From positions 1-32,356 of the IMG/VR virus record IMGVR_UViG_3300046524_000304: a DNA stretch of 32,356 nucleotides. The stretch is one strand, 5' to 3'. Below the pieces are notes generated by a model. It saw only the letters and a list, made by a program, of their open reading frames with translations. It did no database searches and was not told the origin of the DNA. The position numbers and the translations under genes are program-made. Positions 28,750 through 31,329 of this stretch are shown piece after piece (position 1 is the stretch's first letter; every line of letters begins with the position of its first letter). This DNA is from a virus.

Positions 28750-29115
28750 ATGCAACAGGTTCAGATTCCCCCGCTCGCTGAAGGCGAAATCTACCTCGGT
28801 GGATTCGTCAACACAACCGGTGACGTCACGCACACCATCCTTCTGCCCGGCGATAGCGACGAGGCGTCTTGGCAGGCTCAGATGGATTGGGCAAAAAGCA
28901 TTGGCGGCGATCTGCCGACGCGCGCCGAACTCGTGATCGCCTACGAGCAGCACCGCGACCAGTTCCAGAAGGACGCCTACTGGTCGAACACGCCCGACTC
29001 CGATCCCGGCTATTCCGGCTGGGCCTGGTTTCAGAACTTCCTCTACGGCTATCAGGGCTACTACCCCCAGGGCTACGAGTTCCGCGCCCGCGCCGTCCGC
29101 AGATTGTCCATTTAA
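28750..29115 (+). CDS. DGR target protein 1 (DUF1566/C-type lectin-like), carries VR1
   Basis: A 121-residue protein; AGGAG precedes ATG 28750. The sequence includes EIYLGGFVNTTGDVTHTILL, then PGDSDEASWQAQMDWAKSIG, GDLPTRAELVIAY and AYWSNT, followed by the variable C-terminus SGWAWFQNFLYGYQGYYPQG and YEFRARAVRRLSI. This is the DUF1566-like, C-type-lectin-type fold of many DGR targets: the LPTRAE helix and the WS...WF framework are constant while seven AAY-derived positions and one His position vary. There is no signal peptide or fibre domain, so it may be a cytoplasmic binding protein or a small virion part. Confidence 0.88.
   Translation: MQQVQIPPLAEGEIYLGGFVNTTGDVTHTILLPGDSDEASWQAQMDWAKSIGGDLPTRAELVIAYEQHRDQFQKDAYWSNTPDSDPGYSGWAWFQNFLYGYQGYYPQGYEFRARAVRRLSI
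29013..29104 (+). repeat. DGR variable repeat VR1
   Basis: The 92 bases match TR (30140-30231) except at 11 positions, and each of the 11 is A in TR. Seven AAY codons of TR are changed: to CTC, TAC, TAT, GGC, TAC, GGC and TAC, and one CAC to CCC. The flanks (TTCCGGCTGGGCCTGG at the left, GAGTTCCGCGCCCGCG at the right) are identical. The 3' part is a long G/C stretch like the initiation-of-mutagenic-homing region of known DGRs. Confidence 0.93.
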
Positions 29116-29145
29116 CCCTTTGCCCATTTACAACGGAGCAGCGCA

Positions 29146-29610
29146 ATGACCATCACGCTCGAAGCCATCGAAGCCCAGCATGCCCGCGTCGCCGAAATGA
29201 TAGCGGCGTTCAGGGCTCAACCGCTCGCGACCGAGTATCGCGTCGACGCCGTCACGATCCCGCTCGCTCCGGGTGAGCGCTACGCCGGCATCGTGCTTGA
29301 CGAAGACGGCACGCCGTCGCACCACCTGATCCTGCTGCCCGGCGATGTCGACGATGTCTCGTGGTCGGCTGCGAAGGACTGGGCGGCCGAACAAGGCGGC
29401 GGACTGCCGAATCGACGCGAGCAATCGCTGCTCTTCGCGAACCTGAAAGGCGAGTTCGAAGAGCGCGCGTACTGGTCGGCTGAGTCGCATGAATCGGAGT
29501 CCGGCTGGGCCTGGTATCAGAACTTCGACCTCGGCGATCAGTACTACATCCACCAGTACTACGAGTTCCGCGCCCGCGCTGTCCGCAGATTTATTCCTTC
29601 GGTAATTTGA
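29146..29610 (+). CDS. DGR target protein 2 (DUF1566/C-type lectin-like), carries VR2
   Basis: A 154-residue protein from ATG 29146; GGAGCAGCGCA is upstream. The first 40 residues (TITLEAIEAQHARVAEMIAA, then FRAQPLATEYRVDAVTI) are a helical addition not in target 1. Then it is parallel to target 1: PGERYAGIVLDEDGTPSHHL, ILLPGDVDDVSWSAAKDWAA, GLPNRREQSLLFANL and AYWSAE, then SGWAWYQNFDLGDQYYIHQY and YEFRARAVRRF. The two genes are tandem paralogues that share a single template. VR-derived residues differ from target 1 (D, L, D, Y, I, Y, Y). Confidence 0.88.
   Translation: MTITLEAIEAQHARVAEMIAAFRAQPLATEYRVDAVTIPLAPGERYAGIVLDEDGTPSHHLILLPGDVDDVSWSAAKDWAAEQGGGLPNRREQSLLFANLKGEFEERAYWSAESHESESGWAWYQNFDLGDQYYIHQYYEFRARAVRRFIPSVI
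29500..29590 (+). repeat. DGR variable repeat VR2
   Basis: Ninety-one bases align with TR. Eight differences are at TR adenines (AAC to GAC, CTC, TAC, ATC, TAC, TAC and AAT to GAT). Two others are not at adenines: T to A at 29516 in the left flank, and C to T at 29580 in the right flank. So it is a second substrate of the same TR, diverged a little more at its ends than VR1. Confidence 0.9.
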
Positions 29611-29624
29611 TCTTTTAATACACC

Positions 29625-29999
29625 GTGGCCCTGCACACCCAACTCCCCATTTATCGAGCGGCCTATGCGCTGCTCGATAGCGTCACCGACATGGTCAAGA
29701 ACATGCCGCGCGACTTCAAACGCTCCATCGGCGAGAAGATCAGCGCGGAATGCATCGAGATCATGGTTCTGGTGTTTCGCGCGAATGTCGCCCTCGACAA
29801 GGCGTCGCACCTGACCGAGTTGCTCGAACGCCTTCAGGTGATCGAACTGCTCTTGCGGCTCGGTATGGACAAGCGCCTTATCTCGCGCGCTGCGTATGCC
29901 GTGTCCGTCGAGCAAACGACCAGCATCGGGAAGCAGGCCAACGGGTGGAAGAACGCCACACATCGCCCGCTTCGTGGAGGTCAAGGCCGCCATGACTGA
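29625..29999 (+). CDS. avd: DGR accessory variability determinant (Avd-like)
   Basis: A 124-residue protein from GTG 29625. It is all-helical: LPIYRAAYALLDSVTDMVKN, PRDFKRSIGEKISAECIEIM, VLVFRANVALDKASHLTELL, ERLQVIELLLRLGMDKRLIS, then TTSIGKQANGWKN. This is the four-helix-bundle pattern of Avd (related to the S23 intervening protein family). The Bordetella phage Avd forms a pentamer that binds the reverse transcriptase and template RNA and is needed for homing. Gene order VR, avd, TR, RT equals that of phage BPP-1. Its stop overlaps the possible RT start (ATGACTGA). Confidence 0.88.
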   Translation: MALHTQLPIYRAAYALLDSVTDMVKNMPRDFKRSIGEKISAECIEIMVLVFRANVALDKASHLTELLERLQVIELLLRLGMDKRLISRAAYAVSVEQTTSIGKQANGWKNATHRPLRGGQGRHD

Positions 30000-31329
30000 G
30001 CGATCAATCAATCTGGTCGTGCCGCTGGCTCACGAGGCCACCGCCATGCGCATCGCAGATACCGACCGCCAGCGTGCGGCACGGTCTGGCGCAGTTTCCC
30101 AACTGAGCAATCGGTCGGGCGACGTAGATAGCACGATATTTCCGGCTGGGCCTGGTTTCAGAACTTCAACAACGGCAATCAGAACTACAACCACCAGAAC
30201 AACGAGTTCCGCGCCCGCGCCGTCCGCAGATCGAGAAGCGCTTTCGTTCGCCGAACTGGTCGAGGCCTATCTCGACTGCCGGTGTACGAAGCGAAACAGC
30301 AACGCCGCGCTCGCGTTCGAGCTTCGGCTCGAGCGCAACCTGCGCCGACTTTACGACGAGTTGGTCTCCGGAAGCTATTCGCCGGGCCGATCAAAGTGCT
30401 TTGTTATCACGCGACCGAAGCACCGCGAGGTCTGGGCGGCAGCGTTTCGCGACCGCATCGTGCACCACCTGCTTTACAACCGAATCGGCCCGCGCTTCGA
30501 GAAGTCGTTCATCGCGGACTCGTGTGCCTGCATCCCAGGCCGCGGCACGCTGTACGCAGCGCAACGCCTCGAGGCGAAGATCCGCAGCGTTACGCAGAAC
30601 TGGTCGCGACCCGCGTATTACCTGAAGTGCGATCTGGCGAATTTCTTCGTGAGCATCGACAAGCAGATCGTGCTGGACCTTTTGCTCGCGAAGATCCGCG
30701 AGCCGTTCTGGGCCGAGTTGACCGCGCTCGTGCTGATGCACGATCCACGCACCGACTTCGAATTCCGGGGTGATCGCGCCTCACTCGAACGCGTGCCGCG
30801 GCACAAACGCCTGATGGAGCAAACGGCGGATCGCGGTTTGCCGATCGGCAACCTGTCGAGCCAGTTCTTCGCCAACGTCTATCTGGATGTGCTCGATCAG
30901 CGGGCGAAGCACCGCCTCGGCGCTCGGCACTACATCCGGTACGTGGATGACTTCATTTTTCTGCACGCGTCACCAGCATGGCTGAATGCGGCACTGGCCG
31001 ACGTTGCCGCGTTCCTGCCGTCGCGCCTAGGCGTCCAGCTCAATACGAAGAAGACGATTCTGCAGCCTATCGCGCGCGGCGTCGACTTCGTCGGGCACGT
31101 CATCAAGCCGTGGAGCCGCACGACGCGGCGGCGCACGGTCAACGAGGCCGTCCGCCGCGTCGCCAAGGTCGATCCGGAGAATTTTCTCTCGGTATCGAAC
31201 AGCTATTTCGGCCTGCTGGGTCAAGCACCGAGCAGCCACCACGACCGCGCGACGCTGGCGAATGCAGTGCGCCGTCGAGGCCACGCAGTCAATAGATCAC
31301 TGACCAAGACATACCGAGGTTCGTCATGA
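29992..31329 (+). CDS. DGR reverse transcriptase
   Basis: The RT core (about 30241-31320) is clear: LVEAYLDCRCTKRNSNA, PKHREVWAAAFRDRIVHHLL, FIADSCACIPGRGT, YYLKCDLANFFVSID (first catalytic Asp), GLPIGNLSSQFFANVYL, and HYIRYVDDFIFLH (YVDD with the two catalytic Asp), then FVGHVIKP. These are DGR/group II-like motifs. No in-frame ATG, GTG or TTG occurs between TR and the core. The first good in-frame start is ATG 29992 with GGAGG upstream, which gives 445 residues and places the TR inside the ORF in another frame. The actual start is uncertain. It makes mutagenised cDNA at TR adenines. Confidence 0.93.
   Translation: MTERSINLVVPLAHEATAMRIADTDRQRAARSGAVSQLSNRSGDVDSTIFPAGPGFRTSTTAIRTTTTRTTSSAPAPSADREALSFAELVEAYLDCRCTKRNSNAALAFELRLERNLRRLYDELVSGSYSPGRSKCFVITRPKHREVWAAAFRDRIVHHLLYNRIGPRFEKSFIADSCACIPGRGTLYAAQRLEAKIRSVTQNWSRPAYYLKCDLANFFVSIDKQIVLDLLLAKIREPFWAELTALVLMHDPRTDFEFRGDRASLERVPRHKRLMEQTADRGLPIGNLSSQFFANVYLDVLDQRAKHRLGARHYIRYVDDFIFLHASPAWLNAALADVAAFLPSRLGVQLNTKKTILQPIARGVDFVGHVIKPWSRTTRRRTVNEAVRRVAKVDPENFLSVSNSYFGLLGQAPSSHHDRATLANAVRRRGHAVNRSLTKTYRGSS
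30140..30231 (+). repeat. DGR template repeat (TR)
   Basis: Ninety-two bases match VR1 and VR2 and contain a run of eight AAY codons when read in the VR frame (NFNNGNQNYNHQNNEF). AAY codons can vary widely at A positions without giving stops, a hallmark of DGR templates. TR lies between avd and the RT core. In the frame of the RT ORF the same bases give a Thr-rich stretch (RTSTTAIRTTTTRTTSS). The left flank starts at TTCCGGCTGG, the right ends at CCGTCCGCAGAT. Confidence 0.95.

Follow-up and report, generated by a model that had tools for sequence, protein, structure and literature searches.

RT-15 RNA beside the template repeat of a two-target phage diversity-generating retroelement: a probable template RNA rearranged relative to that of BPP-1

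The priming of reverse transcription and the bounds of the complementary DNA (cDNA) are known in detail for only one RNA layout of diversity-generating retroelements (DGRs). In phage BPP-1 the cDNA is primed by an adenine located in the spacer that follows the template repeat (TR) on its 3′ side, as described in the accessible part of PMC12875486. The locus described here raises the question of where the primer would lie when the structured RNA is found on the other side of the TR. It belongs to a stretch of 32,356 nucleotides (nt), positions 1 to 32,356 of the IMG/VR virus record IMGVR_UViG_3300046524_000304, referred to below as the window. The window carries an intact DGR, with two paralogous target genes, avd, a single TR and a DGR-type reverse transcriptase (RT) gene, all on the plus strand. 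The two-target layout is ordinary for the family of this element, and the new part is a structured RNA on the opposite side of the TR from that of BPP-1. From sequence comparison, we consider it probable that this RNA, the Rfam family RT-15, forms with the TR the template RNA of an intact DGR, and that this RNA is rearranged relative to that of BPP-1; we propose that the cDNA is primed from its 5′ element.

A structured RNA directly before the template repeat

The gap between avd and the TR (30141..30231, 91 nt) matches RT-15 (RF03018) over the full model, with 168.9 bits against a gathering threshold of 82 (E 3.6e-42). The match (29961..30143) overlaps the end of avd with its first 39 nt and includes stem P1, formed by 30017..30022 and 30131..30136. 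It stops at the start of the TR, so that the model does not contain the helix with the TR described below. The library name and description of RT-15 give no function. The original prediction for this locus, a reading of the sequence letters and their open reading frames (ORFs), had no structured RNA 5′ of the TR among its features and thereby left out the notable part of the element. A literature search returned no paper tying RT-15 or RF03018 to DGRs, to judge by the listings, in which RF03018 occurs in a single paper, on a Comamonas genome (PMC6307125); prior notice is possible in the likely source paper of the RT motifs or in recent structural work on the BPP-1 RNA.

Relatives were collected by an RT-core search that matched 143 stretches in genomes and 531 in virus contigs, and the best 80 of each set were kept. 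With Burkholderia phage Magia and QDWS, added by name, and the window itself, 163 loci were obtained, of which 156 have at least one pair of TR and variable repeat (VR); removal of identical RT regions left 143 non-redundant loci with such a pair. Of the seven loci without a pair, five begin at the RT core or within 740 nt upstream of it. A motif ending in the first letters of the 3′ strand of P1 was found in 138 of the 143 loci, always 5–12 nt (mode 8) upstream of the TR, and was not found in the remaining five.

The two sides of the TR differ sharply from each other, and in the opposite sense from BPP-1. For 98 sequences, RNAalifold gives −40.6 for the region 5′ of the TR against −0.6 (standard deviation, s.d., 0.9) for shuffled alignments, with compensatory changes at 28 of 44 pairs, and the 204 nt 3′ of the TR show no structure (−1.0 versus −0.6, s.d. 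0.9). Among relatives of the BPP-1 RT (67 fetched, 52 past filters, 38 non-redundant used), the value is −28.0 for the spacer 3′ of the TR and −0.7 (s.d. 1.0) for shuffled alignments, and no structure is seen in the 200 nt 5′ of the TR (−0.1 versus 0.0). An Rfam scan of 40 loci divides them in the same way, with only RT-15 in 19, only Phage_DGR (RF03022) in 20 and neither in one. Window-type loci have RT-15 in 19 of 20 and RF03022, at its gathering threshold, in none of the 20, the exception (L087) starting at the RT, and BPP-1-type loci have RF03022 in 20 of 20 and RT-15 in none of the 20. In the window itself, no RF03022 match was found up to E 10 (29900–30420).

The association also holds when the search starts from the RNA. 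RT-15 alone gave 41 above-cut-off matches in 597 genomes of two families, and in 40 of these an RT and an adenine-biased TR/VR pair lie directly 3′ of the match. The remaining one (L169) is a DGR remnant, in which RT-15 and an apparent TR start are followed by an HNH-like frame and a C-terminal RT fragment. Three additional above-cut-off matches are all DGRs, and the four matches below the cut-off have no RT. At least seven genomes are common to both sets, and the RT-based and RT-15-based tests therefore overlap in part. Among 369 genomes of the class, RF03018 was found only in the centre genome itself. These findings suggest a role for an Rfam family of functionless name, and they make RT-15 an RNA marker by which such DGRs can be found without their VRs. 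A different RNA, C4 antisense RNA (RF01695), is found near one DGR locus (L032, 779–866).

A helix joining RT-15 to the 3′ end of the template repeat

The folding of 45 Burkholderia-type sequences with RNAalifold returned, unprompted, a long-range helix in which 30008–30009 and 30011–30015 are paired with 30227–30231 and 30233–30234. Its 5′ strand is located just 5′ of stem P1 (pairs 7 to 1, 30009..30015) and its 3′ strand at the 3′ end of the TR (30227..30233), consisting of the last 5 nt of the TR and 2 nt of flank, with A30010 and C30232 mismatched. The helix, which would tie RT-15 to the end of the TR and would hold the TR as a loop, was read in 141 of the 143 loci, with both strands anchored on sequence outside the helix (L061 and L144 were dropped). 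Pairs 1–5 are standard in 135–140 of the 141 loci. In register, the paired share is 0.85 over ten pairs, and it falls to 0.36, 0.28 and 0.28 when one strand is slid by 1, 2 or 3 positions.

The clearest covariation is that of pair 7, which is standard in 136 of 141 loci and is found as C-G in 62, G-C in 35, U-A in 26, U-G in 7 and A-U in 6. When the leaves are shuffled, the mean number of loci with a standard pair is 65.8 and the maximum 81. On the RT tree this pair has undergone at least 18 changes, and in one reconstruction nine are double changes between standard pairs, four are one-sided and five lead to non-standard pairs. On its 3′ side, pair 7 uses a base beyond the TR, which in the window is the second letter of a codon in the RT frame.

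The same observations bear on whether RT-15 and the helix are instead a cis-regulatory switch for RT translation or transcription that stands outside the template RNA. Such a switch would be well placed, as the RT frame crosses RT-15 and the TR and candidate start codons are located inside RT-15. However, the distance from RT-15 to the TR is nearly fixed across genera, 43 of the 44 above-cut-off RT-15 matches with surroundings examined lie directly before a TR with adenine-biased VRs (the other being in the remnant), the helix pairs the end of the TR, which is the site of priming in BPP-1, and the side taken by RT-15 mirrors that of RF03022. We regard a switch as an unlikely explanation.

Priming, the RT reading frame and the activity of the element

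Since reverse transcription proceeds towards the 5′ end of the RNA, the primer must sit at the 3′ end of the TR, the end to which the helix would bring RT-15. The priming adenine of BPP-1, A56, comes after UGGUC in the sequence; the preceding strand matches the end of the TR over 7 nt, which could be chance. RT-15 contains a motif UGGUC-R, which shares sequence with the end of the TR-pairing strand, continues through 30016..30019 in the window, and was compared with GUGGUCAGC of RF03022. Of 141 loci, 131 have G as the nucleotide R, 9 have A and 1 has T. Because UGGUC-R sits at the TR-pairing strand as the UGGUC of BPP-1 precedes its primer, the 5′ side may hold a priming domain with a branch near G30019, the proposed priming nucleotide.

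The following mechanism can be envisaged. A single RNA, extending from the avd end across the TR and into the RT gene, would serve as template, and RT and Avd would copy the TR with misincorporation opposite its adenines. The cDNA would then replace VR1 or VR2, independently, in the two paralogous lectin-fold genes. RT-15 would do the work of the 3′ spacer of BPP-1, recruiting RT-Avd and bringing the primer beside the paired end of the TR; the primer is perhaps the 2′-OH of G30019, and G30019 or a neighbour would be the branch point. We infer that RT-15 and the TR form the template RNA and that priming takes place from the 5′ element. As RT-15 would thus take over the work of the 3′ spacer, the RNA appears to be a rearranged, circularly permuted-like form of the BPP-1 type. 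Such a template would be compact, needing no spacer between the TR and the RT. A wider reading, possible but put forward tentatively, is that DGR template RNAs have two topologies, permuted from one ancestral RNA with a UGGUC-R core, and that the RT-15 type is primed from a 5′ purine in a retron-like manner. Part of it, and held with the same reserve, is the proposal that RT-15 may be the unrecognised half of the template RNA throughout the widespread RT-15 DGR family.

The absence of structure 3′ of the TR matters for a more conventional view, in which the element is an ordinary BPP-1-type DGR whose priming spacer lies 3′ of the TR within the RT coding sequence, and RT-15 only stops the RT or stabilizes the RNA. 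In BPP-1 the 3′ spacer does contain the primer, and a terminating motif for the RT lies at the end of avd, according to the accessible part of PMC12875486, and RT-15 occupies the same 5′ side as that terminating motif. However, the sequence 3′ of the TR has no structure, no additional constraint on third codon positions and no RF03022 match (up to E 10, 29900–30420), and it is with RT-15 that the 3′ end of the TR covaries. A priming spacer inside the RT gene thus appears quite improbable, and priming from RT-15 is the reading that we retain.

The RT gene (29992..31329) has its conserved core from about 30235, and its frame runs through the TR without an in-frame ATG, GTG or TTG within the TR or between the TR and the core. 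The predicted order of targets, Avd, TR and RT is correct, but the TR is not a segment apart from the RT gene, as had been supposed. The candidate starts, all before the TR, are ATG 29992, which overlaps the avd stop and has GGAGG upstream, GTG 30019 and ATG 30046. An RT start upstream of the TR was considered on grounds of coding constraint and is unsupported, the stretch 5′ of the TR varying evenly by codon position (0.128, 0.149 and 0.133 in 71 loci). In the same 71 loci the TR varies mostly at third positions of the target gene frame and the RT core at third positions from its first codons onward; the RT frame is open 5′ of the TR in 68 of these related loci. In 25 of 156 loci the RT frame is interrupted by a stop codon at or within the TR and has no start before it. 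In Pseudomonas loci such as L036, L042 and L054 the stop is inside the TR and so is the next ATG; the RT start codon there may belong to the template repeat.

The repeats bear on whether the element is active. VR1 (29014..29104, 91 nt) is identical to the TR at 80 of 91 positions and VR2 (29500..29590, 91 nt) at 81 of 91. The 11 mismatches of VR1 all fall at TR adenines, of which there are 24 in 91 nt (hypergeometric P 5e-8), as do 8 of the 10 of VR2 (P 3e-4), the other two being T>A and C>T; the original prediction that both VRs differ from the TR almost only at adenines is thus confirmed. No further repeat copies were found in the record by script and by a whole-record pattern search. For 316 VR-TR pairs from the 143 loci, counted over a fixed 85 nt, the TR adenine is changed in 3732 of 8491 cells (44%) and the other bases in 0.5–1.5% (T 51/3500, C 44/8590, G 62/6279). 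This fixed-length count is used instead of earlier totals from the finder (4233 at A, 54 at non-A), which were biased by scoring. Control finders tolerating C, G or T gave 192–193 pairs with a mean score of 54, against the 316 pairs with a mean of 80 for A.

In 21 VR comparisons among related phages, none of which includes the window, differences are found at 284 of 556 TR adenines and at 1 of 1361 other positions, a count that uses segments from the A-tolerant finder scoring and is not wholly free of its bias; the accompanying column for 150 nt of flank, which is misaligned wherever the segments start at different points, was set aside. This is the distribution that the original prediction expected of related isolates. 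With VR differences almost confined to adenines both across loci and between relatives, the family is real and its members have recently diversified. Decay of the element, with its VRs as fossils, would fit the two non-adenine differences in VR2 and has a precedent in the remnant L169, but all coding parts of the window element are open and the related-phage VRs, although from the wider family, differ at TR adenines almost exclusively. Decay is accordingly a very unlikely reading, and an intact element remains the preferred one. The 3′ end of the TR is less subject to change. Counting back from the end of the terminal CAG, none of the 45 cells for adenines at 7–18 nt is changed, and 12 of the 328 for adenines at 1–6 nt are (316 unchanged); TR/VR identity often stops at the last TR adenine, right after the terminal CAG. 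The protected adenines fit a cDNA start upstream of the TR end; ordinary homing limits fit them as well.

Several observations weigh against the proposal of an intact element primed from RT-15. RNAalifold did not return the same helix for 55 more distant sequences. Pair 6 is standard in only 82 of 141 loci, with an A·C mismatch in 48, the window included, and pairs 6 and 10 barely exceed the shuffles (82 against a maximum of 79, and 74 against a maximum of 72). Pair 8 is at the shuffled mean (124 versus 123.9), and pair 9 is within the shuffled range (94 versus a mean of 87.8 and a maximum of 96). Translation of the RT across RT-15 and the TR would compete with folding of the RNA. In BPP-1 relatives the complementarity between the spacer and the end of the TR is weak (5.03 versus 4.74, s.d. 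0.12, maximum 5.10), and given this weak parallel the priming-domain step is proposed as a hypothesis. The two non-adenine differences in VR2 belong here, and two loci (L151 and L152) have an RT and ample sequence yet no TR/VR pair, which makes them true misses. Differences also occur in up to 57 of 308 cells at the final adenine of the TR or the base that follows it, so that the 3′ limit of change is not absolute.

Two targets, their neighbours and known systems

The prediction of a complete DGR that combines a single TR with two tandem targets is borne out in all its coordinates and parts. Target gene A (28750..29115) encodes 121 amino acids (aa) and has VR1 at its 3′ end; target gene B (29146..29610) encodes 154 aa and is a paralogue with an extra N-terminal helix. 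They are followed by avd (29625..29999, with a putative GTG start as listed), whose product matches Pfam PF22296 (E 2.9e-13, above the cut-off), phrog_3206 ‘Avd protein of DGR’ (E 1.2e-29) and, under that model's cut-off, NCBIfam DivGenRetAVD (E 2.3e-14). When Avd was searched against Protein Data Bank (PDB) sequences, the matches were mostly short ones to designed ankyrin-repeat proteins and were taken as noise. The RT has the predicted YVDD motif and a reading frame extending to 31329, and matches PF00078 (E 1.2e-14) and phrog_1423 ‘Reverse transcriptase’ (E 6e-115); no curated model specific to DGR RTs was among the library models listed. It is 30% identical to the BPP-1 RT across 307 columns (E 6e-41) and matches the solved RT chain 8ub7 (E 1e-34), presumably that of BPP-1.

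The rarity of the two-target layout, implied by the original prediction, is not found. Two targets are the commonest number in the family (94 of 143 non-redundant loci, with three in 38, one in 10 and four in 1), the counts being lower bounds because the loci are fragments, and a rare two-target DGR was therefore rejected as the news of this locus. Of 148 loci with a pair present and over 1.7 kb of sequence upstream of the RT core (not de-replicated), 131 have both tandem VR places filled. Relative to the RT core these places are at roughly −1225 to −1500 and −740 to −820, and one or two extra VRs lie further upstream in 28 of the 131. In L019, L029, L038, L047 and L064, remote targets 3–5 kb upstream replace or supplement the tandem pair, and L038 has one TR and four VRs. 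Multi-target DGRs are, moreover, already in print. The accessible part of DiGReF 2012 (PMC3521204) lists DGRs with two VRs in Burkholderia thailandensis and B. glumae, describes a class in which the TR and the RT ORF overlap, and does not speak of an RNA element; that of PMC10743442 (2023) reports two-target phage DGRs. As far as these texts go, one TR serves at least two targets there as in the window, but the window targets are paralogues whereas the two targets of PMC10743442 are unrelated to each other in sequence.

The targets were predicted to be C-type-lectin-like or DUF1566-like paralogues each ending in a VR, and this is supported by domain matches and by the modelled fold of A. The proteins are 50% identical over 112 aa (blastp), and both match Lcl_C (DUF1566, PF07603) under the Pfam cut-off (A, E 1.6e-5; B, E 3.6e-4). 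The AlphaFold model of A (m069fdc315b8d, from a 44-member alignment; pLDDT 90.7, pTM 0.83) has a C-type lectin fold, and its nearest PDB structure is 8q4e, the C-terminal domain of Legionella Lcl (Foldseek E 6.7e-4, TM 0.71; Z 13.0, root-mean-square deviation 3.7, 112 residues aligned). Phage DUF1566 proteins are among its high-ranking matches to viral models. The model of B has the extra helix at residues 5–23 and a mean pLDDT of 83.1, with parts of the VR region below 50; a PDB sequence search with B gave no match. Judging from the fold, the targets may bind a variable partner.

The source of the window is a temperate myophage. Genes for tail sheath, baseplate, head and terminase occupy the minus strand as far as about 17 kb and are followed by replication and repressor genes. 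The DGR neighbours are a repressor and a DNA methyltransferase. In L085 the DGR follows a repressor and precedes a methyltransferase, a restriction-alleviation-like gene and an integrase, and the Pseudomonas locus L036 has an exonuclease, a methyltransferase and an integrase (10 of 22 and 10 of 23 ORFs scanned, respectively). Magia has exonuclease, RecT and regulator genes upstream and HNH, excisionase and integrase genes downstream, its tail fibre gene being further off. The exact neighbours vary from locus to locus, but they belong to the early or lysogeny genes. The original prediction had drawn a comparison with DGRs that diversify tail-tip genes, and of this comparison the lectin-fold target stands but the location does not, the targets of the window and Magia being in the repressor-to-integrase region, off the tail genes.

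Whether the targets are nonetheless virion receptor-binding tips like Mtd seems to us an even question. The lectin fold is shared with other DGR targets, and viral targets of DGR clades 1, 4 and 6 are mostly annotated as tail proteins in the accessible part of Roux et al. (PMC8144416). However, the targets are small, stand-alone and away from the tail genes in the window, whose contig is incomplete on the tail side, and in Magia, and none of the 10 scanned ORFs of L085 or of L036 is a tail gene, which is not decisive. As a putative alternative, the targets may act inside the cell or in lysogeny. Their location poses the question of whether some phage DGRs serve functions other than tail adhesion.

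The closest known system is that of Burkholderia phage Magia (NC_070954), which is 79% identical to the window over 94% of the cassette and has the same order of target A, target B, avd, RT-15, TR and RT, and is set apart by gp57, a third target located 6 kb upstream. Its authors describe a DGR with targets gp47 and gp57, and the accessible part of their paper (PMC7883833) neither names gp46 as a target nor mentions a structured RNA. Magia gp46 (L164, 12163–12627) also carries a VR and is a target not annotated as such. In the QDWS record OK094664.1, a target-A-like place at 44730–45074 is far from its DGR. OP650936.1 and OK094664.1 both have 47,902 bases and give nearly the same match, yet very different hosts are assigned to them, a Tenericutes bacterium and Shewanella baltica; one of the host labels may be wrong.

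Retrons have a structured RNA 5′ of the copied part. The window resembles them in this order only, since its copied part is a TR with adenine-biased VR copies, and no retron RT model scores above its cut-off (the only one listed reaches 43.3 against 235 bits). BPP-1 (NC_005357) differs from the window in having one target, located beside a tail gene, a TR that abuts avd, and RF03022 between the TR and brt; no RT-15 match was found in it at E up to 10. It shares with the window the avd-TR-RT order on one strand and the UGGUC-R motif in its RNA, and a second layout with a covarying helix makes it possible to separate what the enzyme needs from what belongs to the history of BPP-1.

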